Below the pieces are notes generated by a model, which was not told where the DNA came from, did no database searches, and saw nothing but the letters and a program-made list of their open reading frames with translations. From Dipteronia dyeriana (lineage: Eukaryota; Streptophyta; Magnoliopsida; Sapindales; Sapindaceae), in the NCBI GenBank assembly GCA_032871835.1, contig CM065300.1, positions 108,435,088 through 108,499,087 of the forward strand: DNA of 64,000 nucleotides, in the 5' to 3' direction. Both the position numbers and the translations under genes were made by a program. Positions 37,745 through 63,290 of this stretch are shown piece after piece. Numbering within the stretch: the stretch's first letter is position 1; every line of letters starts with the position of its first letter.

Positions 37745-37757
37745 TGGCACCGCTGCC
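37745..37757 (+). other. Primer binding site of G2
   Basis: TGGCACCGCTGCC, six bases after the LTR end, resembles the TGGCGCCGTTGCC type used by Athila-type Ty3 elements (tRNA-Asp). Confidence 0.8.
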
Positions 37758-38263
37758 AAGGAGGTAAGTCCGCAATTTCTTTGTAGAAGTAATTTTATTT
37801 TTTTTTAGCTTTGCTATTTTTTTCTAACTTCTTTGTTCTTGTTTTGTATTCTGTTTTGCATCACCAATCTCAATCATAAACTTTATCCACTTTAAAAAAA
37901 AAAGCACTTGTAATCATTAATCACATTTTTGCATTTTAGTCCTTTAACTTTTTTTTTTTTAGCCTAGATCTAGTTTGTATTTGCATATAGGTCATTTTAA
38001 TTTTCACTTTAGCAGATCAGTCCCTTATCTGTCATATTTTCACTTTAGTTCTTAAATTTATAGGTATTTGCATTTTCACCCCAACACTTGTGTATATTTG
38101 CATTTACACCCTTAGAATTTTGCTTCTTGCTATTTTTATCACTTTTTCTTTTATTTTCTTCATTTTTGTGTATTTCACCTCCATGAACCCTTATTAAATT
38201 TGCATTAGATATTGGTCTCGAACATCTAGTGGTAGATTAATTAGGAGATCTCTCACCAACAAC
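37758..38263 (+). other. G2 leader
   Basis: A T-rich untranslated leader with repeated TTTGCATTT(A/T)CA words, between primer site and gag ATG at 38264. No gene is seen. Confidence 0.7.
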
Positions 38264-43340: not shown

Positions 43341-44738
43341 CAGACCATTTATCTCGACTCACTGCTGAGTCGTCATTTGATAAATCACCCATCAATGATT
43401 CTTTTTCGGATGATCTTTTATTCTCTATCACAACTTTGCCTTGGTTTGCTGACATTGTTAATTATCTTGCAAAAAGAATGATGCCACTCGATTGGAATGC
43501 ACAGTATAAAAAGAAATTTTTGACTGAGGTAAAACGCTTTTATTGGGATGACCCATACTTATTCAAGTATTGTCCTAGTCAAATTGTTTGACGGCGTATT
43601 CCAGATAATGAGGTAAGTAGTGTCATTGAATTTTGTCATTCTAAAGCATGTGGTGGTCATTTATCTTTAAAGAAAATGGCTGCAAAAATCTTACAGTGTG
43701 GATTTTATTGGCCCACCTTGTTTAAAGACACACATGCATTCTGTAAAACCTGTGAAAATTGTCAAAAGTTAGGATCCATTTCCAAGCAAAACATGATGCC
43801 TTTAAACCCCATTCATATCATTGAAATATTTGATTGTTGAGGAATTGATTCCATGGGTCCATTTCTGTCATCATTTGGATTTATGTACATTTTGGTTGCC
43901 GTTGATTATGTGTCAAAATAGGTTGAGGCAATTCCTTGTCGAAATAATGATCACAAAACAGTGATTAAGCTTTTAAAGGAAAATCTTTTGAGTCGATTTG
44001 GAATCCCTTGAGCCAATATCAGTGATGGGGGCAAACACTTTTGTAACAAACCTTTTGAGTCTTTAATGGAGAAATATAGAGTCACACACAAATTGTCGCA
44101 CCATACCACCCTTTAACAAGTGGTCAAGTTAAGTTAGCAAATGGGGAGATAAAACATATCTTGTAAAAAACGGTTAACCCTGATTGAAAAGATTGGTCTC
44201 TTAGACTAAATGATGCACTTTGGGCTTACCGCACTGCATTCAAAACATCTTCTGGTATGTCTCCTTATCGTTTAGTTTATGGAAAACCTTGCCACTTACC
44301 TATTGAACTTGAAAAAAAAAAGCATATTGGACCATTAAAGCTTTCAATTCTAACCTAAATGATGTTGGTGAATTGCGCAGGTTGCAAATAAATAAACCTA
44401 AAGAATTAAAAAATGATGCATATGAAAATGCAAAAATTCTTAAAGAAAAATCTAAAACCTTTCATGACAGACGAATTTTAAGAAGATCATATAAAGTTGG
44501 TCAAAAGGTTTTGCTTTATAATTCTCGACTTCATTTATTTCCTGGCAAATTGAAATCAAAATGGAGTGGTCCATTTGTTGTGAAACACGTGTATCCATAT
44601 GGTGCCCTTGACATTGAGAATCATAGGAATGGTAATGTGTTTAAAGTAAATGGACAACGTGTGAAACAATTCTTAGAAAATATAGATTTTCAAAAAGACT
44701 ATGCCGTCCTTTCTAACCCGTGTTACAAAGGTGAATAA
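43341..44738 (+). pseudogene. G2 integrase (Athila-type)
   Basis: It has an HHCC-type zinc region (CHSKACGGHLSLKK..CKTCENCQK). The core has GIDSMGPF and SDGGKHFCN, followed by a damaged segment holding the catalytic Glu. The open C-terminal domain at 44373-44738 has KWSGPFVVKHVYPYGALDIE. Stops lie near 43589, 43838, 43919, 44009 and in 44115-44165, so the enzyme is dead. It ends the pol region; the next sequence is non-pol. Confidence 0.9.
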
Positions 44739-45022
44739 ACAAATCTTTTTCTTTTCACTTTATTTGTGTTTGCAATTAGTATTTTTGTTTATGTTTACTT
44801 TTACATTTTGAATTTTTGTAGGATTAATTTATAGGTTAAGTTTTTGCATAGTGTGTTTTGCTATATAACCCCGGTTAAGTGACGGATAATGGTACTCCGT
44901 GACAATCATAGTCGGTTTAATTTAGTTTCCCAAATAACGGATCCCCAAAACAAGGCATGGACGAAATTTTCACAAACCTGCGAAAATATTTTCCATCGTT
45001 GCCCCAAAATGCTCTGAAAAAG
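44739..45022 (+). other. G2 post-integrase spacer and start of small ORF
   Basis: Spacer after pol. From ATG 44957 a frame of 22 codons (MDEIFTNLRKYFPSLPQN..) runs into E2 at 45023. It continues on the far side of E2 from 59317 for about 23 codons to a TGA. The AAAAG target copy is 45018-45022. The product is not recognised. Confidence 0.6.
45018..45022 (+). repeat. Target-site duplication of E2 (left)
   Basis: AAAAG directly before TGTTAGG; the partner is 59312-59316. A sixth A precedes both copies. Confidence 0.85.
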
Positions 45023-45794
45023 TGTTAGGTTTTAGTTTTTGTTGGCATGAATTCCATAGCAAAATGATGTTTACTTATAATGACTTAGTTGTTTAGGTTC
45101 ATGATGATTCAAGCTTCAAGCAAGAAGAAACAACAAGCCAAAGTAAGTTATAAGTCTTCAAAGTGAAAGGGTGCAATTTGGTTCTACAAAGGTATACTAA
45201 GACCTTATCTTTCTCTTACAAGGCTTAGGCACACACACACATATCATACATTTGTGTCCCTGCATCATTGTGCACCATTATAGGCACACATATACAATTC
45301 ATTCATATGTTTCCCTGCATTGTTGTGCATCATGTATAACACATTCACACACTTGAAGATGAATGCTCATGCATTGGTTTGGAAATAACATGTTTTGGAA
45401 TATGCATGATTGGAAACTATCTCTATGTAGTTTGCATTCTAGTGTGAACTATGTTTGTGTGTGTATATGTTTGTATAACATGGATATTGAACTTGGATTT
45501 AGTCTTAAATCATTCTTGATTGAGTTCTGGTCATTTCGGTTACTCATACTATCGATTTCAAGTTCAAAGTCAAAAGATACTACACTTTCAACTCATGTTT
45601 CATATATTGTCATCGTCTTCATATATCGAGTCAAATTATTATTTTTTGGGGGTAGTATCTTATATGTCCATTTCTGTGTGAGATTTATGGTTTATAATCC
45701 AAAAACGTATTCAAACTCCGAGTTTGGAGGCAGGAGAACAGTCAAAGAACGTGAAGGAAGGTCGAAGGAGAAACAAGCAAGCAAACACTTCTTT

Positions 45795-45868
45795 CCCGAG
45801 ATGGCACTGGCCATCTCGGGGCAGAAGGCTTGCTGCCCCGAGATGCCCATGCACCATCTCGGGCAGCA
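45795..45868 (+). promoter_or_regulatory. Paired GC-rich hairpins upstream of LTR TATA
   Basis: Hairpin 1 is CCCGAGATGGC-ACTG-GCCATCTCGGG (45795-45820), a perfect 11-base stem. Hairpin 2 (45831-45868) pairs TGCTGCC(C)CGAGATG with CATCTCGGGCAGCA around a 9-base loop. Both share the word CCCGAGATG. Related, more degraded copies lie at about 57539-57612 in the 3' LTR and about 2230-2310 (reverse) in E1. Confidence 0.85.
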
Positions 45869-45930
45869 ATCTTGCTTGGCTTCATTTTGTTTCTCCTTGT
45901 CATTTCACATGTCCAAGTCTCCCACTCCTT

Positions 45931-45936
45931 TATAAA
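45931..45936 (+). promoter_or_regulatory. TATA box of E2 5' LTR
   Basis: CTCCTTTATAAACTC lies about 62 bases after the second hairpin. E1 has a TATATA at the same place. The 3' LTR has lost it through a small deletion near 57670. Confidence 0.7.
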
Positions 45937-46879
45937 CTCTTTCCCTCTCACATTTCATTCTAAGAAGAAATTCAAATCAAGTGTGCAGAAGTTTTCTCTC
46001 TAAATTTTCTCACCTTCCAAACACCATAACTTCTTCATTTGAGCACTGATTTGAGTGATTCAAAGTTGAGAGTGCTCATATATTCATTCTCCATCTTTTC
46101 TCTAAAGGTTTGAGTTTATTTTACTGCTGTTTGTGGTGTCTAATCATACAAAAACGGGATTGCACCTAGACCAACTAAGGTATTGATTTTCTCTCTAAGT
46201 TTTCTTTTAAAAATTGGTCAATTGCCTTGGGTTTTCTTCTTCTACTTTTATTTGTATATTGTGAGTGTTTTGATTTGTGTTTTGAACACTTTCAAAGCTA
46301 GGTTGAGTTTCAATTGAAATCATTCATGTTGAGTTAGGTTTTCATTTTGCCTATGTTATCACATGTTTGGGATTGTATTGTGCTAGCTTTGATTCTAGGA
46401 CTATTTTGTGATCTTTGATTGATTTATTTTGAGAAAAATAGTTCCTCACGTGTATTAGGCTCTCTTGGCCGAATTTCTCACGTAATACATGTGCTTATGT
46501 TCTTTTGAGCTATTCATGTGTTTTGTTGAATCTATGATTAGGAATATGCTCTAGAACTTATTCTCTAGAACTTATGCTTAGATATATTTGACATTGTCAT
46601 ATAATTTTAGCATGTTTTAGGTTTTTATGATTTAAACTTGATCTTGTGATTTGTTGATCATATCATGTGATTCGAGTTTAGATATATGCATGTATCTAGT
46701 TTGTGATTAATGTTGATCATATCTTACATAATCTAGATTGACTAATGCATGTTTAACTAGACTATATGTGATTTGTGCATTCATGCTCATGTCTAGAATT
46801 TTCCATAGGATGTGTTGATCATAGACTTCTATGTTGCGCGCTTGTTTGCATTTTGCATTCATGATCACCTAGATGCCTT

Positions 46880-47175
46880 GTGAGAAGGAAGTCTTGACAA
46901 TAGGTGTGAGACCTATGTTGTTGAGCAAGAAGTCTTGCCAATAGGTGTGAAGCCTCGTATTGTCGAGCAAGGAAGTCTTGGCTAGAGGTGTGAAGCCTTG
47001 GATTGTCGAGCAAGAAGTCTTGCCTAGAGTTGGGAGAACTAGAATAGGTGAGGAAGGAAGTCTTGACTATAGTCGGGAAGACTCGGATAGTTGAGCAAGA
47101 AAACTCACCTTGGGTTGTAAAGATCCAGATAAGGTGAGCAAGGATGTCTTGACAAGAGGTGTGAAGCCTCAGATT
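46880..47175 (+). repeat. Tandem array inside E2 5' LTR
   Basis: Five to six copies of a 50-60 base unit on GAAGTCTTG(A/G)C and (G/T)TTGAGCAAGAAGTCTTGCC. It matches about 58605-58860 in the 3' LTR. Confidence 0.85.
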
Positions 47176-47640
47176 GTTGAGCATAGGACGATAACTTCTA
47201 TAGTAGGATAGGAGGGTAGTTTCTAGGTGAAGAGGTCACTTGAGAGATTGTATATGTCTTATCTACTAGTGGATTTTGTTTGCCAGTAGCTGCTAGCCCG
47301 TGGATGTTTCCTTTTCAGAGGTTTACCACGTTATATCTTGTGTCAACTTTTCTCTATCCCTATCTCTCTAATATTTGTATTGTGGATAGAACTCTTTATG
47401 TATGTTGACTTCCTCTTTATAATATTGATTGTGTATGTGTAACAATTACTTGTTTGTATCACACTTTACTTGTTTTTATATATTGAGTAATTGTCTTTTA
47501 TTAATATATATATATCGTGATACAAGCAATCTAGAGGGACAAACTTTTATTTGTTTCTAAGGGAGTCGAAAAAGGTGTCTAACCTATTCACCCGCCCCTC
47601 TAGGTTAGCCTTGAGCATTTAACCATGATTGTATTTTCAA

Positions 47641-47653
47641 TTGGTAACAGAGC
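47641..47653 (+). other. Primer binding site of E2
   Basis: TTGGTAACAGAGC lies one base after the LTR end; it is close to the tRNA-Met type TTGGTATCAGAGC. Confidence 0.88.
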
Positions 47654-47721
47654 AAGACACTAGATTGCACTTAGTGTGAGTCTGGGGATACTTTCACGGT
47701 TTTTGTAAGGCATTTGAAATC

Positions 47722-49571
47722 ATGGGTTTACAAGATGATGTAATGGCAGAAGGAGCCTCAAATACTAGTCCACAATTACTTCGTGGCACTAACTATGGGT
47801 ATTAGAAGTTGAGGATGAAAGCCTGCATCTGCTCTATTGATGAATGGGCTTGGATGGTAGTGGAAGAAGGTTATAGTCCTCCTACCAAGGTTTTAGATGA
47901 TGGAACCATGATACTCAAGCCAAGGAGTTAATGGACAACAAATGTGTTTGAGGTTGCTAAATGGCACCATCGTGCTATGAATGGCATCTTTGGAGGAGTT
48001 GATGGGCATCAATTCTCCTACATTCAAAATCTTGAATCCGCAAAGGAAGCTTGGGATACTCTCCAAGTTACTAATGAAGGAACCTTAGTGGTGAAGAAAT
48101 CGTGGCTTCAAATGTTGGCATCACAATTTGAAGGTTTAAGTATGGGTGAGGAAGAAAAGTTTAAAGACTTCCAATTCCGGCTTCTTAACATAGCTAACCA
48201 ATGTCAAGCACTTGGAGTACCTATCTCAAAAGAGCGTTTAAATTGGAAAATCCTTGGATCTCTTCCTATAAGATTCAAATCAAAGGTGATGGCCATTGAG
48301 GAAAGCAAGGATGTGGATAGTATGAACATCGATGAGTTGCTTGGGTCTCTCCAAACTTATGAGTTGTGCTTGAAGCCAAAGATCAAGAGTAAGGGAATTG
48401 CTCTCAATGCTATTGAGGAGAAGAGTGATGATGAAAATTAAGAAATGGCACTCTTGGTTAGAAGGTTCAAGAAGTTTCTAAAGAAGAATGTCAAACCTAA
48501 AGGAAAGTCTTCTAAGGAAAAAGGAGTCAAGAGAACATCATCTCCAAGGATTGTGAAGAATAGTCAAGCTATGAACAAAAATGAGGTTCAATGCTATAAT
48601 TGTCAGGGTTTTGGTCACTTTTCTAGTGAGTGTACCAAGAAGCCATCTAAGAAAGAAAAGATAGGCAAGTGTTGGTGGCTACTTGGAGTGATGATAATTC
48701 TAGTGACAATGAGAGCTCTAGTAGTGAGTCTTCAAGTGATGAAGAGTTGGTGAGCAACTTTGTAGCTCTAACGGCTTCTCATTCTTCACTAGATGTTGGT
48801 AGTACAATATCTTTGAACAAGAACCTTGATGAAAATCATGATGGAAGCTCTAGTTACATTCCTACTAATATTGAGTTGTTGAAAAAGATAAAAAAGCTTG
48901 AAGAAGCTAGAGACAATGCTCAAAGAGAAGTAGTTGAGAAGGATGATTTGATCAAGAAGCAACTAGATGAGTTTATGGTTGTTACTCGTAGACTTCTTGG
49001 TGAGAAAGGTGATATTATGAAGAAATTTAGAGAACTTGAAATGATAAACCTTGAGAAGGATAATGTGATATCTTCTTTAAAAAAGAGAGAACAAGAATTG
49101 ATGGAAGAGATAGACATGGCAAATGAGGCTATCAAGGATTTAGTGAATGATTCGGTTAGTGTTTCTAGTGTTAGAAATCTTGTTAACTCTCATAGTGGTG
49201 AAGACGACTTGGTAGTTGAAGAGGAGCTTTTGGAAGCACCATTTGCTATTCACTTGGATAAAGTCATGATTGTTAAGAAACCACACAAGAAGAGAAGATC
49301 AAAAGCCAAGAAGAAGTTGGCGGACAAGGTATCTTTGCAAACTCATAAGGAAGCTAGTTCAACTCCAAAAGGTACAATCTTATCTTTTGTTCCAATTTGC
49401 CATTATTGCAACACAATAGGTCACATTAAGCCTAGGTGTTATAAATATATTGAAAAATGCAAATTAGGAAATGAATATAGGGATAAAGAGATTAAACTTC
49501 AACTTGAACATGCTAAGGCCTTCAAAATTGAGAAACATGATAATTTTGCTAAACATGAGAAAAAGTTGTGA
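47722..49571 (+). pseudogene. E2 gag (SIRE type, two zinc knuckles)
   Basis: From ATG 47722 one frame runs to about 48665 with in-frame stops (about 47800, 47930 and 48439-48441). It covers the UBN2-like gag core (AWDTLQVTNEG, FKDFQFRLLNIANQ, LGSLPIRFKSKV) and a first knuckle CYNCQGFGHFSSEC (48593-48634). After a frameshift near 48670 it continues open to 49571 with a Ser/Asp-rich segment, a long Lys/Glu coiled coil (about 48880-49135) and a second knuckle CHYCNTIGHIKPRC (49398-49439). The order of domains matches gag of C and D. The 48669 start of the second frame is GTG, so it is not a real initiation site. Confidence 0.9.
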
Positions 49572-50600
49572 AGTAGAAAGAATTCTAATCTTGTTCAACT
49601 TGACAAAGCTTGTGTTGATAATGTTAAGGTAGAATGTGTTAATGATATTCTTGTAAATCAAGTCATTGAAGGACTTTACTCTAGATTTAACATTGTTGTC
49701 AAGGATGATATTGGAAATGTTTGTGTAGGTACACCCAAGAACAAGTGGTTTAACAGTGAGTGCTCTTATTACTAAAATAAGAAGCACATGTTAGACAACT
49801 TTGAGGCTATATATCAATTGTGTTGAGAATTCTTGCTTGCTAACTTTGAATACTCAATGTATTGATATGAACTTGGTTATCTCACATCATGTTTGTTATG
49901 ATGATCAAAATTTGTTGATTAACCTTGAAGAAGTTCTTTTGTTATATGTGTTGATTGAGTTGAGATATTATGCTTTTTATACTCTTGTTGTGAAACACCG
50001 TCAACTTGATGTCATGAGGACATTCAAGGCAAGAGTGCTCATAAAAAGGGCGGAAGTATGAAATTTGGTGAATATAATGTGCAAAAAGGTATCTCTATAC
50101 TCTAATGCATATTCTCTTAGATATTCATCTTTTGACTCGATTTTTGACATACATCTCATAGCATGTCATATTAGAGAATTTTGTATAGTATACATATGGT
50201 TCTCATTGACATTTGCTATTTTAGGATCTAATAGTGATATTGTTCACATTGATCTTAACTTTTATGATTGTTTGTGTTTAGTATATTGAGTGGCATTACT
50301 TTTGAAAATATAAGCTTCATATTCTTTGAAAGCTACTAATTAGAGAAGTAATGATTTTGAATAAGTCTCTACTTATTGCTCTAAGATCATATGCTTATGA
50401 GCCATAAAATCTTGGTTTTCTAAAAATTGCACCTTGCTTCTTTTATATGTTTTGCTAGAAGAATGAGTTTACTAATATGTAAATATTGGATACACCTTGA
50501 AGTTTTTGTGCTTAAGTACATTTAAAATGACCTATGGTTAGTATCCATTTTACTTCGGCAATTACATAGAACTCAACGAGCACCTTCATGAAAACGGCTA
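49572..50600 (+). other. E2 region with protease scrap, pol missing
   Basis: A short KWF-NSECS match near 49744-49767 looks like the WYLDSGCS protease site with the Asp changed and one codon lost. No integrase, RT or RNase H follows. Open frames at 49801-50061 and 50065-50289 match nothing recognisable. From about 50470 the sequence is collinear with E1. E2 therefore seems unable to encode pol. Confidence 0.7.
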
Positions 50601-50608
50601 CACACCTT
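50601..50608 (+). repeat. Target-site duplication of hAT (left)
   Basis: CACACCTT, identical to 54384-54391; eight bases is the hAT-superfamily length. Confidence 0.95.
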
Positions 50609-53600
50609 TAGTGGTGTAAAAATGGACTGGCCCGGCCCATTATGGACGGCCTGGCCAGTCCATTTCTGGAAACAGGCATAGTTGGGCTGGCCCGCTACTG
50701 TGTCACGGGCCGGGCTGGGCCGGCCTGTTTCCAGAGAAGCAGGCCCGGCACGGACGCCGGCCTGCCTTAGGCTGGCCGTGCCTGCTTGCCGTTCCAGGCC
50801 GGCCCGTCGGGTCCCTCTGGCGGTCTGGCCGAGCCAGGCCTAACGGGCCTGGTCCGGCGGGTTAGTTTTTTGGTCCAATTTTTTTTCCAAATTACGTTTT
50901 TTTGGATTTAGGGTATAGGGTTTAGGATTTATAGTTTATGGTTAAGGGTTTAGAATTTAAAATGAATGAAGAGAACGAACAATTATTAGGATTTGAAATG
51001 AATAAAGAGAACGAACAATTTTTTAATTATTTATTTATTTTTCACTTATGGAATTCAGTAATACATATCTACATGATTGCCTCATTACAAACCTTACCAA
51101 GAAAAACCCAGTGGGATATAAACTTGGTAAGGGAAAAAGAGTGCAACCGTTTTACAACTTACAAGTAAATAATAAATACATATGTAAAAGTATAACCTAG
51201 TTCTGGCCCTGGCCACTACCTGAAGGGTCATCAATATATAGATTGTCAAAATTTAGATTAATTTCTTTATCTACAGTTAGATTTTGTAACCTTTTTTTAG
51301 CATGCTCCCAATCCCGAAGGCATGTTAATACCTCCACCATCTCTTGAGACAAACAACTTCTTCTTGGTTCAATTATGCATCCACTGGTGCTGAAAGCTTG
51401 TTCTGAAGATACCGTTGACACTGGAATAACCAGTACGTCACGTGCTATGTGTGACAGAACTGGATACCTGTACGTATAGGTCTTCCACCATAACAACAAA
51501 TCAAACTCTTCCTTGTCTTCAACAACATCGAACTGTGCTTCAAGGTACCTAATAAGTTCGGTACAAGAAGATGGGCTAGATCTTTGCCCTGAAGAAGTAC
51601 TTGTTGATTTGTCTTTTTTTCTTCATTTCAGAAGGCTCCAACTTGTTTGCTTCGGCTCTGTCTCCGGTCGTGTTGATTGGGGGATGTCAATGTTTCCAAA
51701 CCTGGTCTTATAAATATGAAAAATCTCGAACAACTTGGTTCGAATGTCAGTAATTTGTTCTGAATAATCTTTTGACAAATTAATACCAATAAACTCAAGC
51801 AAAACTTCTAAACCAGATAATTTAACCCTGGGATCTATTATAACACTTAAGGCATAAAGTAAGGGAATGTTAGCCCTATATTTTTTCAACTTTGTCTCCA
51901 TGACAACAACTGCAGCGCCTAGATGTTCATCTTCTCTATAGCTGTTTAACAGTTCAGACATTTCCACTATCTGATGGATTGCCTGGGAAGATGTGGGGTA
52001 ATATACCCCGGAAAGAGTTACAGTGGCATTGTAAAAAATCTTTAAAAATTGAACAAAAATCTTTGCCACATACCAATCGTCTGTGGAAAGTAATTTTGGA
52101 CTAAGTTGTCCTGTTTCGGTCAATTTCATGTTATAAAAACATGTAATGGTTGTATCATATTCCAAACAATTGTGCAACATTAAATAAGTAGAGTTCCACC
52201 TTACCGGCATATCAGTTTGGAATCGTCGAGGTTTGAGACCGTTTAATTTACAATGTCCCTTGAATTCACTGAATCTAGGATTAGAACTGCAAATCCAAGA
52301 AATGGCATCTCTGATGCGATCTATTTGATCGCTTACCTGCTTTAAACCAGCCTGTACAACTAAATTTATAATATGGCATGCACACCATTGATGGAAGAAA
52401 TAACTTCCATCTTGCGGGATATTTCTTGCAACAAACAATGCAATAGAGCTAGTATTTGCAGATGCATTATCAAATGTGATTGAAAGAATGCGATGCGTGA
52501 TTTCATAAGTTTCTAAAACTTCCGTTATGACATTAAAAATGTTTTCTGCGTTATGTGTAAAATCCATAGGACGAAAACCAAAAATTCTTTTTGTTATCCT
52601 CCAATCAGAATCTAAATAGTGTCCCGTGACACATAAATAGTCCTGTTTGGAACATGCATTCCAAATATCAGAAGTTAATGCAACAGAGACACTTAAATAC
52701 TGTATTTCAGCAACTAAGTCATCCCTTTCGGTTTCAAACAATCGTATCAAATCATTTCTAGTGGTGGTTCTAGAAACAGGTTCATATTGGGGGTTATATG
52801 CAGATGTGATTAATTCTTTATAAAATCGACTCTCACCAATACTGATCGGTTGATCAGTTTGTGCAATGTATCGTGTCAAGCACCCTCTAGCGTGCATGGC
52901 GTCGAACTGCCACATCGTAACGGACCCGTCTGTGTGCCGTTGAAGCTGTGTCTGGGTTGTAGTATCTACCTGTCCATGTGCAGGCATACATTTGTGCATA
53001 TGCCGTCTCAAATGTCCGGTTCCCCCCGTACTTGTAGCATAATTCTTATGGCAAAACTTACATTTAGCTCTGAGGCCAGACGCCCCGTTTGGGAGTGTCA
53101 TTTGGACTATGTTGAAACATTGCCACACATCTGATGTTAATTTTCTGGGACGTGATGTTGGTGTAACGCCGGAACCAGAAGGTCCCGCTTGAGTATGGGT
53201 CGGTTCTGAAATATCAAATTCATCGTTGAGCATATTCAAACCGTCTGGAAAATACGGCTGCTGGTTATGATCCATTATCTGAATAAAAATATGAGCACTA
53301 TAGTAGTTAATAGTCAAATTAAAAATCAATATTTACTAACAGTAATCTTAATTTACTAACAATAATTACTATAACTAATACGACACTTACAATAATTTAT
53401 TTTCTTAAAAAACAAATTAAATAAACAAAAAAAATCATAATCTACTAACATAAAATTTTAAATTCACTAGTTCACTACTACAAATAAAATTGATAAATTT
53501 ACTAACATAATATACTAACATAAAATTGATGATTTGAACCACTACTCTTAAATTTACTATCATATTCTACAAATGAAAAATTTTAATTTATGAAAAAAAC

Positions 53601-54383
53601 AATATCAAACGTAATTACTACACTTAACATTCATCATTTACTTATTACAAATATTAAAATTACTACTAAACTTAAAAATCTTAATAAACTAAACAAATAA
53701 TATTAACATTAAAGCCCAAAAATTGATAAACTAACTAACTAAATAGATAATGTTTTCATTAAGTAACTCAAATCTAAACATAAACATATAAATTTACTAT
53801 GAGAATATGTTAGACCAAAAGTAATAACAAAATTGTACCTTTCAAATTTGGTGTGTTTGTGGAAAACGTACAGAATTTTGTAGAGAGAGTAATAACCAAA
53901 ATGAATGAAAATGTTTAGAGAATTGGAGAATATATTAGAGATTGAGATTTAAGAGAATGAGAGATTGAAAGAATGATATAGAGAGTTAATGGAAAATGAA
54001 ATGGATGGAAGTATTTATAGAAAAATTTGATTTGTTGGTCAAAATGTAATTTAAAAGATTGTAGGGGGGTTTTGGTAATTTTAATTTCATCCAATGGCTA
54101 GAAATCAATTCCAGCTGCTGGAGGCTTTTTGAAAAAAAATAATAAAAAATTGCCCGAACTGACCTGCGGACCGGTCCGCCGGGCCTGGCACGCCGGATTG
54201 GCGTGCCAGGCGGGCCGGCCTGCAGGGCCTCCTCCCAGAGGCCCGTCCCGGGCCAGGCCGCGGCCTGGCCCTCTTCCTTCACAGGCCGTTCCAAGAACTG
54301 CCCGTGAACTCCTTGTGCCGGCCGGACCTACCTGTCAAAGGCCGGACCTGCCTGTCACCGGCCGGCCCACTTTTACACCACTA
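50609..54383 (-). mobile_element. hAT DNA transposon inside E2
   Basis: The element is 3,775 bases. Ends are TAGTGGTGTAAAAATGG and, reverse complemented, TAGTGGTGTAAAAGTGG: 17-base terminal inverted repeats with one mismatch, flanked by perfect 8-base target duplications. Subterminal zones (about 50625-50870 and 54160-54365) are dense in GGCC(C/T)GGCC-type words on both strands, which suggests transposase-binding or structural repeats. 53330-54160 is the AT-rich region upstream of the transposase gene, and 50870-51196 its downstream region. Open frames in the GC-rich right end are not genes. Confidence 0.95.
51197..53275 (-). pseudogene. hAT transposase, frameshifted near the C-terminus
   Basis: I choose ATG 53275 (MDHNQQPYFP); the frame is also open 18 codons upstream. 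A BED-type zinc finger has CKFC and HLRRHMHKC (about residues 50-96 from this start). The catalytic domain shows TSDIW and TFDNASAN (the first two acidic positions) and CACHIINL. The main frame stops at 51623 after an SWSLLK sequence. The missing C-terminus is in another frame, from about 51600 to 51197, with IPVSTVSSEQAFSTSG, RRSCLSQEMVEVLTCLRDW, the hAT dimerisation domain. The break coincides with an 8-base T run near 51613-51620, so one small indel there would explain it. It is otherwise about full length. Confidence 0.93.
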
Positions 54384-54391
54384 CACACCTT
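54384..54391 (+). repeat. Target-site duplication of hAT (right)
   Basis: CACACCTT, matching 50601-50608. Confidence 0.95.
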
Positions 54392-55241
54392 GGTTGTGAA
54401 AGCTACCCAATGTTGGAAAGAGCTACACCATTGTGATGAGTGAAAGCCGTCATGAAGAAAATTTTGTTTATGTACAAAAAAAAATGGAAAAATCAAAGAA
54501 GTGTTGAAAGGAATTCATAAAAAAAAATATTTGATTCAAAGCCTAAAAAGAAAAGGAGGATGGCTTAAAAAGAAGTTTAGTTGCAAATCAAATGAGCTCG
54601 AGTTGAAAAACAGAAATGGGATGATGAGCCATATGCACACACATGCTCAAATGTTGAAATCTATTCTCTTAAAAGCAAAAATTCCGGATGATAATTGGTT
54701 TGACTTTTTATGGAAAAAGCTTAAGATGGATAGTTATTGGAAATTGTTTGCATGTTGATTATCAAACTACTTTTTAATATATATTTGAAGCATATCTCTC
54801 TCACACACACTTTGTTTATGAGTATGATGATATCTTTGCAATTGTTGAAGAATCATGAGAGAACTTGAAAAATCTTTGTGTATCTCTCTTAGCAAATGAA
54901 GCTTATTTTGTTGATATTTATTCAAATTGCTTGAATGTGTGATTGTGTGAACTTCCTTGTGAACCTTATGCTATCATGAATCTTAGTCATAGCATTTATT
55001 AAGGGGGAGCATTGTATGCTAGACATTGTTCTCTTTTATGATATGTTCACATGCTTCATTTTGTTACATGTTGGCATATTTTGACTTCATGATACTTGTA
55101 AGATATTACTCCTTATCTTTGTCTTGCATGAAGATTCATTTTTAAGTCATATGTCATTGTTTTATATATTTGTGACTAATAAGCTTGTTTTGTCTTTCAC
55201 TCACTTTTGTATGTTAATAGCATTTTATTTCACAAGAACAA
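54392..55241 (+). other. E2 internal spacer after hAT
   Basis: Collinear with E1 4680-5450 (reverse). It is AT-rich and contains the GGGGGAGCATTGTATGCTAG segment that E1 also has. The 85-codon frame at 54501-54758 is not open in E1. No gene is supported. Confidence 0.7.
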
Positions 55242-56300
55242 ATGGGAAGAACTAAAGTTACCGGAAGTGGAAATCAATTGAATCCCATTGTGAAAGCCAA
55301 GTCAACCTCAAAGAGATCCAAATCTTCAAGGTCAAAGGATTTAGGGATCTTTGTAACTAAGAAGATATTTCAAGAGAGAGGCATTGACTTAGGTAAATGT
55401 AAAGATTCTTATGTTCTTAAATGCATTAAGGATAGAAATTGTGAATCTTGGGTGAGCATGCTAGGAATAGTGAATGACACTATTGTTAGAGAATTTTATC
55501 ATGAATATATAGAGAGTGCCACCTTATTGGATACTTTGATGGATGTTAGGGGTGTTGTGTTTAGAGTTAACCCGGTAAACATTAACAAGTTTCTTAGGCT
55601 AACTAGTGATATTGATTCAAACTTTCTAGAAGTTGATATCATTGAGAATCTTAATATCATGGGTAGAATTCTATGTCACAATGCGTTTTTTGAGTGGAAA
55701 GGTAGAGCATATATTAGTCAACATGAATTAACTAAGGCAAGTGCATTTTGGCATATTTTCATTTGCATAAATATTATTGGATCTTCGAATTCAACCGAGT
55801 TGAATAAAGACAAGATCAAAATAGTATATGCCTTAGTAACTAATCAACCAATAAATCTTGGGGATTTGCTTATGTTTTATTTGGATAATGCGGCTTTCTC
55901 AACTAGAGGAGATAAGAAGCTTGCATTACCGGGGTTTATAACTTCTTTGTGTTTAGCTCGTGGTGTTCAAAGTAGTGGAGATGATATGTTGGTACAACCC
56001 TTGGAAAAGTATAGTGATAAACGTGTGTCATACATGTCATATAAGGATAAGGGTAAGACATGTGATACTTTTGGACTTTTTGGTTCACAAGTTGATTGTC
56101 AAGAGACTAGCATAAACATTCTTCCGGATTAGGTTTTGCATTTGAAGAAGAAGGTTGATGAGCTTAGTGCTATAGTTGAAAAACAAGATGCTAGAATAAA
56201 AGAGTTGGAGGAGTGTATTGCATCAAGTTCAAGACCACCTCTCAAGCATTATGTTAGATCAACTACACGCACATCTTTCTTTGGTGGATCTAGTAGCTAG
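55242..56300 (+). pseudogene. E2 env-position ORF, plant transposon-protein type
   Basis: ATG 55242 opens 296 codons, to TAG 56130-56132. The same frame continues to the natural end at 56298-56300, and E1 has a Trp codon at the stop position, so the TAG is a late nonsense mutation. The N-terminus is basic (MGRTKVTGSGNQ, KAKSTSKRSKSSRS), possibly a nuclear signal. The middle (FRVNPVNINKFL, ISQHELTKASAFW, IVYALVTNQPINLGDL) resembles the putative plant transposon protein family. The C-terminal VDELSAIVEKQDARIKELEE region is a coiled coil. No signal peptide or membrane segment is apparent, so it is not env-like in structure despite its position between the pol side and the 3' LTR. Confidence 0.78.
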
Positions 56301-56753
56301 TATTTGAGTCTCATGGTATGTTTCTTACCTTTTGGCATCATTTCATGTCAAAGAGGGGGAGAAAGAGTTGTTATGAATTGTTAGTTACTTAGTTTCCTTT
56401 TTATGTTGTTTCTGTGAACTTTTGGACTTTCAATGGCTTGTAATAATTAGTCTTAAGATTTGGTTAAGAATTCTTGTATTTGGCATGTATTGAGGGGGAG
56501 ATACATGTATTTGTGGACTTAAATGTATATTCATATCCATATTATATGTTGCCATTTGTTATTTTTCTCTTGCATATGCATTGTGCTTTAAGATGATTTG
56601 TAGGTTGCTTCAAGAGAAGATCAAGATAAAGTTCAAGAGTTGGTGAAGATTAGTTATAGGAATCTTACTCATTGTAATGTGAGGGAGTGATTTTGTGACC
56701 TCTCTTCATTTTTATATTTGTAGTAAATGTATAGATGTTTTGACATGGAATTT
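56301..56753 (+). other. E2 noncoding 3' region
   Basis: Spacer collinear with 3089-3547 of E1, containing a GAGGGGGAGATACATG purine block. No gene. Confidence 0.7.
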
Positions 56754-56768
56754 GCCAAAGGAAAAGAT
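56754..56768 (+). other. Polypurine tract of E2
   Basis: GCCAAAGGAAAAGAT lies directly before TGTTAGG. Confidence 0.8.
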
Positions 56769-59311
56769 TGTTAGGTTTTAGTTTGTGTTGGCATGAATTC
56801 CATATCAAAATGATGTTTAATTGTAATGACTTAGTTGTTTAGGTTCATGATGATTCAAGCTTAAAGGAAGAAGAAACAATAAGTCAAAGAAAGTTCTAAG
56901 TCTTCGAAGAGAAAGGGTGCAATTTGGTTCTACAAAGGTATACTAAGACCATATCTTTCTCTTACAAGGCTTAGGCACACACACACAAATCATACATTTC
57001 TGTCCCTGTATTGTTTTGCACCATTATAGGCACACATACAATTCATTTATCTGTGTCCCTGCATCGTTGTGCATCATGTATAACACATTCACACACTTGA
57101 AGATGAATGCTCATGCATTGGTTTGGAAATAACATGTTTTGGAATATGCATGATTGGAAACTATCTCTATGTAGTTTGCATTCTAGTGTGAATTGTGTTT
57201 GTGTGTGTATATATTTGTATAACATGGATATTGAACTTGGATTTAGTCTTAAATCATTCTTGATTGAGTTCTGGTCATTTCGGTTACTCATACTATTGAT
57301 TTCAAGTTCAAAGTCAAAAGATACTACACTTTCAACTCATGTTTCATACATTGTCTTCGTCTTCGTATATCTAGTTGAATTATTATTTTCTGGGTTGAGT
57401 ATCTTACATGTCCATGTCCGTGTGAGAGTTATGGTTTGTATTCCATAAACGGATTCGAATTCTTAGTTTGGAAGCCAGAGAACGGTCGAAGAAAACGAAG
57501 GAAGGTCTAAGGAGAAAGAAGCAAGCAAACACTTCTTTCCCGAGATGGCGCGTGGCCATCTCAGTGTAGAAGGCTTGCTTCTCCGAGATGCCCACACACC
57601 ATCTTGGGCAGCGAGCTTGCTTGGCTTCATTTTTCCCCTCTTGGTCATTTCACTTCTCCAAGTCTCCCACTCACATTTCATTATAAGAAGAAATTCAAAT
57701 AAACTGTGCAGAAATTCTCTCTAAATTTTCTCACCTTCCAAACACAATAACTTCTTTATTTAAACTATGATTTGAGTGATTCAAAGTTGAGAGTGTTCAT
57801 CTATTCATCCTCCATCTTTTCTCTAAAGGTTTGAGTTTATGTTGCTGCTGTTTGTGGTGTCTAATCAAACAAAAACGGGACTGCACCTAGATCAACTAAG
57901 GTATTGATTTTCTCTCTAAGTTTTCTTTTAAAACTTGGTCAATTGCCTTGGGTTTTATTCTTCTACATATATTTGTATATTGTGTGTTTTGATTTGTGTT
58001 TTGAACACTTTCAAAGCTACGTTAAGTTTCAATTGAAATCATTCATGTTGAGTTAGGTTTTCATTTTGCCTATGTTATCACATGTTTGGGATTGTATGGT
58101 GCTAGCTTTGATTCTAGGACTATTTTGTGATCTTTGATTGATTGATTTTGAGAAAAATAGTTCCTCACATGTATTAGGCTCTCTTGGCCGAATTTCTCAC
58201 ATAATACATGTGCTTATGTTCTTTTGAGCTATTCATGTGATTTGTTGAATCTATGATTAGGAATATGCTCTAGAACTTATGCTCTAGAACTTATGCTTAG
58301 ATCTATTTGACATTGTCATATGATTTTAGCATGTTTTAGGTTTTTATGATTTTAACTTGATCTTGTGATTTGTTGATCATATCTTGTGATTCAATTTTAG
58401 ATATATGCATGAATCTAGTTTGTGATTAATGTTGATCATATCTTACATAATCTAGCTTGACTACTCATGCATGTTTAACTAGACTATATGTGATTTGTGC
58501 ATTCATGCTCATGTCTAGTATTATAGGATGTGTTGATCATAGCATTATATGTTGCGTGCTTGTTTACGTTTTGCATTCATGATCACCTAGATGCCTTTTG
58601 AGAAGGAAGTCTTGGCAAGAGGTGTGAAGCCTCGGATTGTCGAGCTAGGAAGTCTTGGCTATAGGTGTGAAGCCTTGAATAGTCGAGCAAGAAGTCTTGC
58701 ATAGAGTTGGGAGAACTCAGATAGGTGAGCAAGAAAGTCTTGACTAGAGTCGGAAAGACTCAGATTGTTGAGCAAGAAGTCTTGCCTTGGGTTGTGAAGA
58801 TCCAGATAAGGTGAGCAAGGAAGTCTTGACAAGAGGTGTGAAGCCTCAGATTGTTGAGCATAGGATGGCAACTTCTAGAGTAGAATAGGAGGGTAGTATC
58901 TAGGTGAATAGGTCACTTGAGAGATTGCACTTATCTTATCTACTAGTGGATTTTGTTTGTCGGTGGCTGCTAGCTTGTGGATGTTTCCTTCGGAGGTTTA
59001 CCACGTTATATCTTGTGTCAACTTCTCTCTATCCCTATCTCTCTAATATTTGTATTGTGGATAGAACTCTTTATGTATGTTGACTTCCTCTTTATAATAT
59101 TGATTGTGTATGTGTAACAATTACTTGTTTGTATCACACTTTTCTTGTGTTAATATATTGATTAATTGTCTTTAATTAATATATATATTGTGATACAAGC
59201 AATCTAGAGGGACAAACTTTTGTTTGTTTCTAAGGGAGTCGAAAAAGGTGTCTAACCTATTCACCCCCCCTCTAGGTTAGCCTTGAGCATTTAACCGTGA
59301 TTGTATTTCTA
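56769..59311 (+). mobile_element. 3' LTR of SIRE-type element E2
   Basis: About 2.54 kb, collinear with 45023-47639. The end reads TGTATTTCTA, altered from TGTATTTTCA in the 5' LTR, and AAAAG follows. The hairpin region (about 57539-57612) has substitutions that weaken both stems. The array is at about 58605-58860 and the SIRE-type signature at about 59258-59278. Confidence 0.92.
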
Positions 59312-59316: not shown

Positions 59317-59384
59317 ATTTACAAAGCACATTCCGAAAGACTATGCTTACTGATGATAAACAAAATTCCTGTTGAATTCGCCGG
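59317..59384 (+). pseudogene. Second half of small G2 ORF split by E2
   Basis: It continues the frame from 44957-45022 (IYKAHSERLCLLMINK..) to a TGA near 59386. The product is unknown. The uninterrupted length across both halves is about 45 codons. A different frame opens immediately after, so the two may be parts of one decayed gene. Confidence 0.5.
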
Positions 59385-59684
59385 TTGATCGAAGCTAAGG
59401 TATGTATAGCAGGTGAGTCTGCTGATTCATTTATATCTTACATGTCAGGTTTTGGAAGAAATAACCATGCAAAAAAACGAAGAGCTAAGAAGTTAGGGGT
59501 TACTTGTTACAAATGTGCGCGTACAACTTGCAACACACGTTGCCGTTCTTTAGGAATGGTGTCTAATAATCGGGAAGATAAAATTTTATTCATTATGCAT
59601 GGTTTGCATAGGGAGTCATTGGATAATATCCTAACGAATCTTGATGCACATCTTAGTGGATATGTGCAAATGGAAATTGACTGA
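59385..59684 (+). CDS. Unknown Cys-rich ORF in G2, possibly decayed
   Basis: The frame is open from 59385, but that codon is TTG; the first in-frame ATG is in SYMSG, about 22 codons in. It encodes a basic stretch (KKRRAKK) then CYKCARTTCNTRC, a compact Cys cluster (C-x2-C-x4-C-x3-C), then a helical segment ILFIMHGLHRESLDNILTNL. I do not recognise the family. It lies between pol and the LOG-like gene inside G2, so it may be part of an element-specific accessory ORF together with 44957-45022 and 59317-59384. An expressed product is uncertain. Confidence 0.4.
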   Translation: MIEAKVCIAGESADSFISYMSGFGRNNHAKKRRAKKLGVTCYKCARTTCNTRCRSLGMVSNNREDKILFIMHGLHRESLDNILTNLDAHLSGYVQMEID

Positions 59685-59721
59685 TTATGGCCTTAATTTG
59701 AAAAACAACATGCACAATATA

Positions 59722-59758
59722 GTCTTGGGAATCTGACTTTAAGTCAGATTCCCAAGAC
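59722..59758 (+). repeat. Perfect 37-base hairpin
   Basis: GTCTTGGGAATCTGACTT, one T, then its exact reverse complement AAGTCAGATTCCCAAGAC. An 18-base perfect stem with a single-base centre lies about 360 bases before the LOG-like ATG and just after the Cys-rich ORF. Confidence 0.97.
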
Positions 59759-60039
59759 CCTGTTTGCTAATTTATAATAAAAATTGATGGGAAGCATATC
59801 CCCTACCCATAGAGGGCGTTGAAGCCATTTCTATACGTAAAACCAGAGGAAGATGTGAGCCACAATCACAACTACGAGTAAATATCCTTTTGTTTTTATT
59901 ATCTTTTTCCTTCCTCATTTAAAGTCTTTTGTAATTACTGTTGTATAATTTTGATTTTTGAACCATTTAGATCTAATATCATTGACAAATACACCGCCCT
60001 ATACATATAGGTGTATTATTGTGTTACCTTTTCTGAATC
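59759..60039 (+). other. Upstream region of the LOG-like gene
   Basis: AT-rich sequence between the hairpin and the TATA box. No ORF or known motif apart from a CTATACATATAG near-palindrome (59999-60010). Confidence 0.6.
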
Positions 60040-60047
60040 TATAAATA
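60040..60047 (+). promoter_or_regulatory. TATA box of the LOG-like gene
   Basis: TATAAATA lies 70 bases before ATG 60118. Transcription would begin roughly 30 bases downstream, giving a 5' UTR of about 45 bases (CT-rich, then A-rich). This is a standard plant core-promoter layout and suggests a promoter separate from the LTR. Confidence 0.65.
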
Positions 60048-60117
60048 CAAGCATTTGTTTTTCTTTTTGCTTCAAGCACTCATAAACATTTAAAAGAAAA
60101 TTTCAGAGAGTGCATTA

Positions 60118-60771
60118 ATGGCGTCACCTTCAACTAAACGATTCACAAACATTTGTGTGTTTGGTGGCACTAATTATAGGAAATACAGAGAGTTTGTTGA
60201 TGTTGTAACTCATCTTGGTAAGGTTTTGGTTAAGCGAAAAATACACCCAGTGTATGGAGGAGGTAACTTGGGATTAATGGGGTGTGTTTCACGAGCTGCA
60301 CGAGACGGAGGTATTCAAGTTCTGGGTATTGTCCCAAAACCTATGGGCGCAGCAGACATCATCGGAAAGACAAACGTCGAAGAGCTAGTTGTTTCAGGTA
60401 TGCCTGAAAGATTAACTGTTATGTTACATCATGTTGATGCGTTTATAGCTTTGCTAGGTGGTTTTCGAACCTTAGAAGAAATCTTTTCAATGGTATCCTG
60501 GGCGCAACTACACATTCATGAGAAACCCATCAGTTTGTTGAATGTTAATAAATTTTATGATGGTTTGCTTTCATTTCTTGATCATGCTCAGAAAAATTAT
60601 TTCATTCCACCTTCAATCCGAAAAATCTTTATCTCTACTTCAAGTCCTCGTGAGATGATTGACCAGTTACAAGCTTTCAATTATGAGCCAGATCCTTCAA
60701 CCTCCAAAATTGATTGGTCCATTGATGGAGTGAACAAGAAACGCATAATTGATCTGAATCTCAGTTTGTGA
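60118..60771 (+). CDS. LOG-like cytokinin phosphoribohydrolase family protein
   Basis: 217 residues, intronless, starting MASPSTKRF. LOG enzymes remove ribose 5-phosphate from cytokinin nucleotides to release active cytokinin in the cytosol or nucleus. Seen here: ICVFGGT (12-18; usually VFCGS), YGGGNLGLMG (46-55), GIVPK (70-74), an ERL segment with Arg98, LGGFRTLEE (113-121) in place of PGGxGTxxE, and WAQLHIHEKPISLLNV (128-143). Glu121 and Arg98 are kept. Pro113, the Gly at 117 (now Arg) and the Lys usually next to the Arg (now Leu99) are changed, so activity is doubtful. The body length is normal, with an extra tail ending IIDLNLSL. It lies inside G2, downstream of pol and upstream of the 3' LTR. 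Plant LOG genes normally have introns, so a captured cDNA is likely. Alternatives are a solitary retrocopy or a pseudogene. Confidence 0.9.
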   Translation: MASPSTKRFTNICVFGGTNYRKYREFVDVVTHLGKVLVKRKIHPVYGGGNLGLMGCVSRAARDGGIQVLGIVPKPMGAADIIGKTNVEELVVSGMPERLTVMLHHVDAFIALLGGFRTLEEIFSMVSWAQLHIHEKPISLLNVNKFYDGLLSFLDHAQKNYFIPPSIRKIFISTSSPREMIDQLQAFNYEPDPSTSKIDWSIDGVNKKRIIDLNLSL

Positions 60772-61987
60772 TTGTCCCATGGTTTTTATGCATTTAATTT
60801 TCCTTTATTTTGTATTTCATTTGTTGTTTTGAAGGATTTTGTTGTCTTTCAAGTTGTTCAGGTGATATCTTCTGAACATTAACTCTTTCTAAATACATTG
60901 GGGACAATGTCTCGTTCTGGTTGGGGGGAGGGGATAGTTGATTCAATAACTTTTGTTTTTTTTTAAAAAAAAAAACTAACTTCTGACCATTTTTTTTTGT
61001 AAAGATAATCGAGTAAGGAGATCTTTTAGACACTTCTGAGACGCATCTTTGAGTTATAATGTATTTTTTCCTCTCTTCTGACTATTAAAATTTATAAACT
61101 CTCCATTGTGATATCATTGACTAATCCTTTTGTTTATTAAGTCATCTTGAGAAATTTTTCGAACTATTCTGGACATACACGCACATTGACACGTGATTAT
61201 GTGCAGTAAGTTGATATTTTGCGATATTTAGTTCTTAAACATCATCCAAGGGTAACAACCAAAGGCAGTGGTCTTGTTTCAAAAAAGATATAGTAATAAT
61301 AATAATAATAAATTTGTTTGTTTTGACCAAAACTCTTACTTAGTAGCCAGGTCTCATGCCTCAGTAAGCATATAGTGTTCGTGCAAAACGGTGGAGTCTG
61401 GATAAGAGTAAAGTGCAGTTTCATAGCCTTTTTAACTCGAGCAATTAAGTCTGAGGGGTGCTTTAACACCCAATGCCCTAAGACCAACTGGTTTGGGAGT
61501 CATTGACCCAAAGCTCGTTACATAGGTTAAAAAGAAAGCTTAAGGGAATTGTACTAAAAAAAACATCTGCAATCCGAGTAATGAAGCCCGTAAAAGTGTT
61601 TTAACACTTAATGCCCTAAAACCAATTGGTTTGGGAGTCATTGGCCTAAAGCTCGCCATATGGATTAAAGATGGAATGTTTGTTTCCAATTTTGTTATAT
61701 TAACAAAAAAGAATAAAAAAAGAATAAAACTGCTGCCTACGGAAAAAGCCCTGATGATATTTCGGAATGAAAATGTTGTTTGATTTCAATTAAATCTCAT
61801 ATTTATCGTGTTGATCTTTATTGAGCACAAGAAAGTTTGATTGATAACTCGATTGATGACTGGTTGTCAAAGGGTGAGAAAAGAGGTATGGGAGATTTTG
61901 TCTATTTGGTAGTTTAGAGATTTGAATTTGAGTTTTTACTATTTTCGCTTTAATTGCTAGGGACTAACAATAAGCTGGTTGGGGGTG
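60772..61987 (+). other. G2 3' untranslated region
   Basis: The segment ACATTGGGGACAATGT and a G-rich TTGGGGGGAGGGG tract (60921-60933) follow the LOG-like ORF, as I recall after the last gene of Athila-type elements. A (TAA)n run lies at about 61291-61309, a duplicated 70-base unit at 61459-61669, and the polypurine tract AAGCTGGTTGGGGGTG at 61972-61987. No gene. Confidence 0.75.
61459..61669 (+). repeat. Two-copy direct repeat in G2 3' UTR
   Basis: The unit TTTAACAC(C/T)(C/T)AATGCCCTAA then ACCAA(C/T)TGGTTTGGGAGTCATTG and AAAGCTCG occurs at about 61459-61529 and 61596-61669. An ACCAACTGGTTTGG palindrome-like core is in each. Confidence 0.85.
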
Positions 61988-63290
61988 TGATTAACACTGA
62001 AAAGTGTATGTTTACTAAAAGATAATATCATCACTTTACACTTCCAATATGATTAATTCTCCAATCTAAATATAATTTCGTTCGCTCGCTTAAATAAATG
62101 TGTTGTGTAGTAATCAGTGTATTTTTCTTTGTATTTCAGAGGTAATTCAATCAATTCAGATTTATAGAGAAGTCAGATAGTAAAACAAACATCGTTTTCA
62201 AGTTCAGAACGTCGAAAACCTTAGGAAGGCCATAAAGGGCATTTTTGTAATTTTGACTATACAATGGTTACAGTTGCCTTTCACTGTTTACAGTTGACTT
62301 TCACTGTTCCTGATGATGTGGCACATTCCTATTGGACCGAACTGTGAGCGTACCATACACGCGACTATAGAGAATCACATTCTAAAAGTCGGTGCACTGT
62401 TCATAGTTGACTTTCTAGAAGATTATTGACCGATGACGCGACACATTTCTATTGGCCTAAATTGTGAGTGCGCCGTACACATGCTGCAGAGAATCATATT
62501 CTAGAAGCCGGTGCACTGTTCACTATTGAATTTTCACGGATGCATTTACTGTAAACTGTTCACTATTCACTGATGACGTGGTGAAATCTGGACGCTCCAT
62601 TCTAAATTCATCCGATGGTCAATTTTCGTCTGTATCTTGTTTAAATAGGGAACTTCTCCCCCCTAATTTGTATATTCTGAATCCAAATCTGATATTAGAT
62701 TTGTGAAATTCTCTCTCTTTTGTTCTCAAATTTTTCAGTTTAAATAAAATAGTTATTTTCTAGTTAAATTATGTTTGGCTAATTTTATATAGCTGGGGCC
62801 AAAGGTAATACTGTTGGTATGGAAAATATGATCCAATTTTGGTAAGTTTATTATTTTTTTGCTTTCTCCCCTCTAATCTTTATGGAGTTTTTAACTCACT
62901 TTAGGCAAAAAGATAATGTCTAGCACAGTGGGTACTTTTACCCATATCCATCAGATAGTGGTTCTCCCCTCTGATCTTTGTGGAGTTTTGACTCACTGTA
63001 GATAGACAGATGCTGTCTAGCACAGTGGGTACTTTTATCCACATCTATCAGATAGAGGTAAGTGTAGTGGAATACCCTTAAATCGAATTACCAACAGTAA
63101 ATCCCTTAACAACAGTTTCAATTTAAATTGATTTACATTTTTATAACATGCTTATTAATTAATCTAGATAATTAATTCTACAAGGACAGGTGAACAACCT
63201 CCCTGTGGTTCGACCCGATCTTATCGGTTAATTTATTACTTTGACACTCTTATACTTAGGAGTATGAACACCTCTTTAGGACGTGGGACA
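61988..63290 (+). mobile_element. 3' LTR of Athila-type element G2
   Basis: It starts TGATTAACACTGAAAAGTG and is collinear with the 5' LTR to GGACGTG at 63285. The last few bases differ, so the exact end is uncertain by about 5 bases. No clean 5-base target duplication was found: 36401-36405 is CACAC, while the right flank near 63288 reads CATAC or TACAT. Confidence 0.88.

Follow-up and report, generated by a model that had tools for sequence, protein, structure and literature searches.

The locus and its genes

We analysed a window of 64,000 nucleotides from the genome of Dipteronia dyeriana (assembly GCA_032871835.1, contig CM065300.1, positions 108,435,088 to 108,499,087, forward strand); all coordinates given below are those of the window. 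It contains an intronless open reading frame (ORF) for a protein of the LOG family, known for cytokinin-activating enzymes, within an old Athila-like Ty3/gypsy long terminal repeat (LTR) retrotransposon (36406-63288), the assignment to Athila being based on the layout and on the failure to find a second RNase H. The LOG gene belongs to this element and has spread with it. Upstream of LOG lies the split remnant of a second extra gene, whose predicted product resembles the nucleic-acid-binding proteins (NABPs) of carlaviruses and their allies. The features of the element, in order, are as follows.

36406-37738, + strand: 5' LTR (TGATTAACACTG...GACGTGTCA), 89.3% identical to the 3' LTR
37745-37775, + strand: probable primer-binding site (TGGCACCGCTGCC...), 6 bases past the 5' LTR
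38198-41168, + strand: gag and gag-protease region, broken by a nested solo LTR near 38600-39770
42941-43588, + strand: RNase H piece (PF17917, E=1.3e-30)
43244-44726, + strand: end of the RNase H followed by the integrase, containing stops and frameshifts; three pieces with 67.7%, 74.0% and 58.1% identity to the intact ORF of L002, a related contig described below
44957-45022, + strand: start of the NABP-like gene (22 codons), cut off by the nested insertion; it matches the N-termini of family members
45023-59311, + strand: nested LTR element of about 14.3 kb with the target duplication AAAAG, separating the integrase from LOG and splitting the NABP-like gene
59312 to about 59809, + strand: remainder of the NABP-like gene by family alignment, frameshifted, with the zinc finger CYKCARTTCNTRC after a basic KKRRAKK
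59809-59885, + strand: conserved non-coding block after the NABP-like gene, 89.5% identical to L002 2343-2419
60040-60047, + strand: TATAAATA, candidate core promoter, 78 bp before the LOG ATG
60118-60771, + strand: LOG-type ORF, 217 codons in one open frame (217 aa), with the motif LGGFRTLEE and the C-terminus KKRIIDLNLSL
60895-60931, + strand: ACATTGGGGACAATG and a G-rich tract, also found in the LOG-less L002, at 2575
61977-61987, + strand: polypurine tract GGTTGGGGGTG, adjoining the 3' LTR, in the same place in most of 15 copies compared
61988-63288, + strand: 3' LTR, pair partner of 36406-37738

An earlier, sequence-only reading of this DNA had described a LOG-family ORF between an integrase and a 3' LTR, with matching LTRs at 36406 and 61988 that share the same start, and a polypurine tract after the ORF. 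This description holds. The ORF matches PF03641 (E=1.4e-31, residues 54-184 covering positions 1-131 of the 131 in the profile) and PF18306 (E=5.7e-10), its best solved relative is At2g37210 (2a33, E=1.6e-49), it is located between the integrase remains and the polypurine tract, and both LTRs start with TGATTAACACTG. The reading's figure of about 11.4 kb for the element is also obtained by arithmetic, the excess length being due to the nested LTR element and the nested solo LTR.

Spread of the LOG gene in the host genome

The host genome (914 Mb) contains 1,089 candidate LOG places, of which the best 150 were scored. All 150 match (E<=6.2e-113) and, besides the window copy, are 81-88% identical; 52 of them are free of stops (hand count). 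A search for the NABP-like sequence gave 1,521 candidates, and again all 150 scored places match. We fetched 40 of the 150 LOG places, with preference for stop-free ones (27/40). LOG is preceded by NABP-like sequence in all 40 (a fragment only in two copies, at a distance of 1.7 kb in one) and followed by the same LTR (its first part only in three copies), which starts at a median of 1,228 bp after LOG; therefore, LOG is a part of the element. A simple test on coordinates gave the order integrase-NABP-LOG-LTR in 35 copies, of which two have little integrase; no integrase was seen in the other five. Thus, the suggestion of the sequence-only reading that the element may have spread with LOG is borne out: the proposed search for other host copies carrying the ORF found them, contrary to the reading's refuting outcome of an ORF absent from all other copies.

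The reading had further proposed a mobile hormone-activation gene. Mobility is supported by the spread of the copies; hormone activation is doubtful for the window copy, in which the LOG motif PGGxGTxxE (as given in the available part of PMC11593424) reads LGGFRTLEE. Among the host copies, including that of the window, the motif is kept in 23/41 and altered in 18/41, and 36/41 end in LxLxL. For comparison, we took the best 120 of 1,369 LOG relatives in the protein database, which include proteins of Xanthoceras, Dipteronia, Populus, Paulownia, Reevesia and Diplodiscus. The motif is kept in 97 of these 120, and LxLxL directly precedes the stop in 94 of the 109 full-length ones; LOG proteins of the Xanthoceras type are without the KKR...LxLxL tail. 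The aligned relatives are 50-58% identical to the window protein, except for one Dipteronia protein at 82%. In a quick tree with 120 rows and a midpoint root (4 of the 120 hits were dropped and the Citrus protein P0121 was trimmed), two Arabidopsis LOGs are split from the listed relatives by a branch of 0.68 with support of 100. Populus database proteins named LOGL10 (P0013 and kin) group among the multicopy relatives, and it may be that transposon cargo has here been annotated as host genes.

The octamer TATAAATA, a TATA box, was found within 245 bp upstream of LOG in 37 of the 40 fetched copies; in 26 of these its distance from the ATG is 78 bp. It has changed less than most of its surroundings, 19 of the 227 windows of eight bases being as low or lower. 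This hints, weakly, at a promoter belonging to LOG itself. The capture of a LOG cDNA, which the reading had also proposed, is conjectural: no poly(A) stretch was seen after the LOG stop in the window (checked by eye), and the TATA box stands before the ATG as described. The stretch directly after LOG has a likeness of 0.571 to L002, which equals the best of 40 shuffles; its only tie to L002 is the ACATTGrGGACAATG core with the G-rich tract.

The NABP-like gene

The sequence-only reading missed the split NABP-like gene (44957-45022 and 59312 to about 59809). The N-termini of family members match the first of these pieces and their remainders match from 59312 onward, which places the nested insertion within this gene. 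At E<=1, the protein database contains 74 relatives of the ORF at 59385-59681; 73 of them are labelled Carla_C4 and 27 also Viral_NABP (hand counts; the viral families used are Pfam PF01623 and PF05515). Among the aligned members, 35/46 match Carla_C4 and 32/46 match Viral_NABP at E<=0.001, with a best E of 3.4e-9. When ten members were scored against the curated Pfam cut-offs, eight passed that of Viral_NABP and nine that of Carla_C4; L002 passes one of the two. The strongest matches reach 37.4 bits over 82-88 residues, with both viral families at the same place, and none of five reversed-sequence controls matches Carla_C4 or Viral_NABP. As a part of the best overall explanation, in which our confidence is middling, the gene could well encode a small zinc-finger protein of basic character, a relative of the cysteine-rich or nucleic-acid-binding proteins found in carlaviruses and their allies.

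Comparison of the window and L002 over 97 codons of the NABP-like gene gave synonymous and nonsynonymous differences per site of pS 0.576 and pN 0.186, and the ratio of the corresponding rates (dN/dS) for two RNase H-integrase pieces is 0.13 and 0.18, indicating that both genes were under constraint. The non-coding block that follows the NABP-like gene is more alike between window and L002 (89.5%) than are the coding regions (70-71%). RNA folding of the conserved blocks gave z-scores of 0.81 and -0.36, and -2.12 and -1.80; the post-NABP block folds only mildly better than its shuffles.

Related elements in other plants

L002 (DAIEQH010000041.1) is a contig of 3,330 bases that has plant-type retroelement genes and is filed in a metagenome bin of Candidatus Nomurabacteria; this is likely to be contamination of a public bacterial genome. 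It contains, in this order, an RNase H-integrase ORF that is open and 70.3% identical to the window at the DNA level, an intact NABP-like ORF of 182 aa, the post-NABP block and the G-rich tract. In Acer, NABP and LOG pieces occur within one gene model (P0171), and in Citrus an NABP N-terminus stands ahead of LOG (P0121). The Xanthoceras model P0002 joins LOG to the gag-protease stretch of the window element, matching positions 40944-41087 at 56%. Two NABP models from metagenome contigs extend into the 3' non-coding region of the element, and Populus has both the LOG and the NABP families (linkage was not seen). Of 694 candidates for a LOG part within a protein of 605-1925 aa, one matched, the Citrus protein. 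IMG/VR was scanned with queries for LOG, NABP and integrase as well as with two DNA patterns, and no plant element was found. One IMG/VR contig (L001, 1337-1660) encodes a LOG relative with 37% identity.

Structure and age of the window element

Over 1,303 aligned bases, the LTR identity of 89.3% corresponds to a Kimura two-parameter distance of 0.116 (BLAST gave 87.0% identity), i.e., 4 to 23 million years under a simple clock with four different rates. The window LTRs are 89.2% identical to each other and up to 89.5% identical to LTRs of other copies; thus, either the insertion dates back to the family burst or the two LTRs do not form a simple pair. The flanks outside the LTRs, CACAC and CATAC, which we read as the target duplication, share four of five bases. 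The sequence at 37745-37775 may resemble a tRNA 3' end and is the probable primer-binding site.

No Pfam gag match was obtained for the two pieces of the gag region that were scanned. RNase H precedes the integrase, as in gypsy elements. A second (archaeal) RNase H, the mark of Tat elements according to the available part of PMC6317226, was not found: the RNase H-integrase ORF of L002, which was scanned in place of the window stretch as one piece, gave only rve and Integrase_H2C2 at E<=0.01, and RNase H and integrase of the window align to L002 without an intervening gap. The copy in the window is old and broken: the NABP-like gene is split and frameshifted, the integrase has stops and frame changes, and LOG is open with a damaged catalytic motif. 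In a neutral simulation, the LOG frame survived open since insertion in 3.75% of cases; an RNase H stretch of 216 codons in the window is likewise still open, and no claim of selection on the window LOG copy is therefore made.

Other repeats surround these genes. The nested LTR element contains a hAT-type transposase ORF (zf-BED and a hAT-like RNase H fold; 51197-53332, - strand), which makes a third nesting layer, and, near its 3' end, an ORF with PF20167 (Transposase_32, E=1.4e-25; 55242-56132, + strand). Just upstream of the 5' LTR, positions 32121-34815 hold a partial copy of the gag-reverse transcriptase region of the element, 92-95% identical and including the same nested solo LTR; it is probably a local duplication that postdates the solo LTR.

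Interpretation and selection on the cargo genes

The explanation that we favour, with a confidence near the midpoint of the scale, is an Athila-type lineage with an NABP-like gene in the place of the env-like ORF, many members of which carry an intronless LOG directly after it, both genes being copied along and serving in counter-silencing and in cytokinin release. The elements were copied by retrotransposition with the two genes travelling along, as is seen for LOG at the 150 scored places and for the pair in the 40 fetched copies. By analogy with viral relatives, for which suppression of silencing is stated in the available part of PMC12172455, the NABP-like protein may bind the element RNA and weaken host RNA silencing. 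The LOG protein might be made from a short promoter of its own or from a spliced message; it would free active cytokinin locally and keep cells dividing, and dividing cells would favour an element that is inherited through the germline.

A number of observations weigh against this explanation. Concerning selection, LOG variants seen once among the copies have a nonsynonymous to synonymous ratio of 171:65, equal to the neutral expectation of 2.62, and variants common to several copies (90:44) are not significantly different from the single ones (p=0.29). When the copies were pooled, LOG gave a pN/pS of 0.66 (0.73 with the stop-free copies), and 20 NABP copies, compared without alignment, gave 0.94, with 0.61-0.81 for pairs of less than 15% divergence and 1.14 for pairs above it. 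Neutral ratios after insertion suggest that the copies decay freely once inserted, and that constraint, if any, acted on the few copies that bred. It should be noted that no stops occur among LOG variants seen in at least four copies (p=0.0006 compared to other frames); however, this signal is biased because mostly stop-free copies were fetched.

Concerning the need for LOG, eight NABP places outside the LOG top 150 were compared: four retain LOG across its full length, in each case as two or more separate matches (probably frame breaks), and four have lost most of LOG, so that LOG is not needed for spread. Three of the LOG-deleted elements (L056, L057 and L059, on contigs C4, C8 and C9) share one deletion junction near base 150 (oriented), which removes LOG codons 1 to about 203; a LOG-deleted subfamily exists and has also spread. 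In L002, no LOG was found in the 983 bases between the NABP ORF and the contig end. The damaged motif of the window copy, the neutral-looking changes after insertion and the LOG-deleted subfamily together indicate that the cargo is dispensable. Concerning function, LOG-family proteins need not make cytokinin, and some are phosphohydrolases (PMC11593424, in the part available). The NABP-like structure model is poor (predicted local distance difference test score 58), and the window NABP piece alone scores 18.6 bits versus the Pfam cut-off of 20.9 bits. Since an unrelated family scores up to 20.6 bits with the reversed controls, this piece proves nothing by itself; the family does.

Alternative explanations

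These observations lead to the strongest alternative, a minority possibility that we take seriously: LOG may be a neutral passenger, captured once or more and copied owing to its position within the element, while bringing neither the element nor the host any benefit. The neutral substitution ratio after insertion, the subfamily with one deletion junction in three loci, the LOG-less relative L002 and the alteration of the motif in 18/41 copies, the window included, are all consistent with it. A pure passenger, however, would decay between bursts, whereas the catalytic motif and the C-terminal tail are mostly kept in the listed relatives, in spite of their distance from the window protein.

The likeness of the NABP-like gene to viral NABPs may reflect convergence on a basic stretch with four cysteines rather than common descent; we consider this rather unlikely, and somewhat less probable than the passenger explanation. 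The match is centred on a short region rich in Cys, Lys and Arg, noise in reversed controls is about 20 bits, two of the ten scored members are under the Viral_NABP cut-off, and there is no confident fold. A search of solved structures with the NABP-like protein gave nothing convincing (best E 0.064). Conversely, the strongest members score above the curated cut-offs over the 82-88 residues mentioned above, and two viral families match at the same place, which argues for common descent.

It is improbable, though conceivable, that the element LOG is no longer mainly an enzyme and acts in the nucleus as an adaptor through its KKR...DLxLxL end, which resembles an EAR repression motif. In favour of this, the terminal LxLxL is frequent both in the full-length relatives (94/109) and in the host copies (36/41); the explanation is opposed by the intact catalytic motif in 97/120 listed relatives and by the tail-less Xanthoceras-type proteins. 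Moreover, the alignments of Arabidopsis LOGs stop before their ends, and the tail is thus not established as absent from ordinary LOGs.

Finally, an independent late insertion of LOG into one Athila copy, which a single old copy alone could not exclude, is rejected as having a negligible probability, given that 150/150 scored host places match, that LOG lies between NABP-like sequence and the same LTR in the layout shared by all 40 fetched copies, and that no repeat of at least 14 bases bounds LOG, apart from a T-rich one.

Relation to known elements and genes

Capture of LOG by a retrotransposon is not new. With credit to Steinbauerova et al. 2011, the available part of PMC9289625 describes gypsy LTR consensuses of Citrus sinensis, C. 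clementina and Populus trichocarpa that contain a YgdH/LOG domain. These are Ty3/gypsy elements with an extra LOG-family domain, as here, and Citrus belongs to the same plant order as the host. This was the only publication on LOG in retrotransposons found among the matches listed. That part of the report gives the domain only, whereas the NABP-like neighbour, the position, the C-terminal tail and the deleted subfamily are seen here. The new part is the NABP-like gene beside LOG in the element: no published NABP-like gene in a retrotransposon was found among the papers listed, judged by titles or abstract openings, and the main text of PMC3136472 does not contain the term NABP.

With Athila, as described in the available parts of PMC7264820 and PMC6317226, the element has in common RNase H followed by integrase, no second RNase H found, and sense ORFs between pol and the 3' LTR. 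The env-like ORF of Athila encodes a transmembrane protein; in contrast, the 3' gene here encodes a zinc-finger protein of the viral NABP type. The cysteine-rich/NABP proteins of carlaviruses and mandariviruses (PF01623, PF05515; PMC12172455, in part) share with it a basic stretch and, after this, a Cys4 zinc finger, with significant profile matches, whereas the gene here is a chromosomal LTR-retrotransposon gene that has N- and C-terminal parts beyond the match and is known from its sequence. The Phalaenopsis gypsy elements with an AlkB RNA demethylase offer a parallel, in that an ORF for an enzyme has become fixed in their lineage too; that enzyme is a different one, with activity shown in vitro according to the same part of PMC9289625, whereas the activity of the element LOG is a predicted one. 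Plant LOGs (At2g37210, At5g11950; PMC11593424, in part) are of the same domain family, and PGGxGTxxE is present in most of the listed relatives. The element LOG differs from them in being multicopy, with one open frame in host copies, a KKR...LxLxL tail and a long branch from the two Arabidopsis LOGs in the quick tree.

Implications

According to the available text of PMC7264820, plant LTR retrotransposons contain extra antisense ORFs whose origin is mostly unknown, and even env-like functions are disputed. In the element described here, one extra ORF appears to be related to a family of viral RNA-silencing suppressors and is the neighbour of a gene for a putative hormone-activating enzyme; the gene models of Acer and Citrus place this pair outside the host as well. 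A practical caution is that some tree database entries named LOG may be transposon cargo and not host genes. More tentatively, and with less confidence than in the explanation favoured above, the element may represent a retrovirus-like plant lineage, with traces in several eudicot families and at least 150 copies in one maple relative, that carries a two-gene module for host manipulation: a silencing suppressor shared with flexuous RNA viruses (acquired from such a virus, or the source of theirs) and a cytokinin-activating enzyme that would drive division of the tissue in which the element resides. The finding offers testable ideas on the role of extra ORFs, i.e., counter-silencing and the control of cell division, and suggests that flexuous RNA viruses and retrotransposons may be linked in their evolution.

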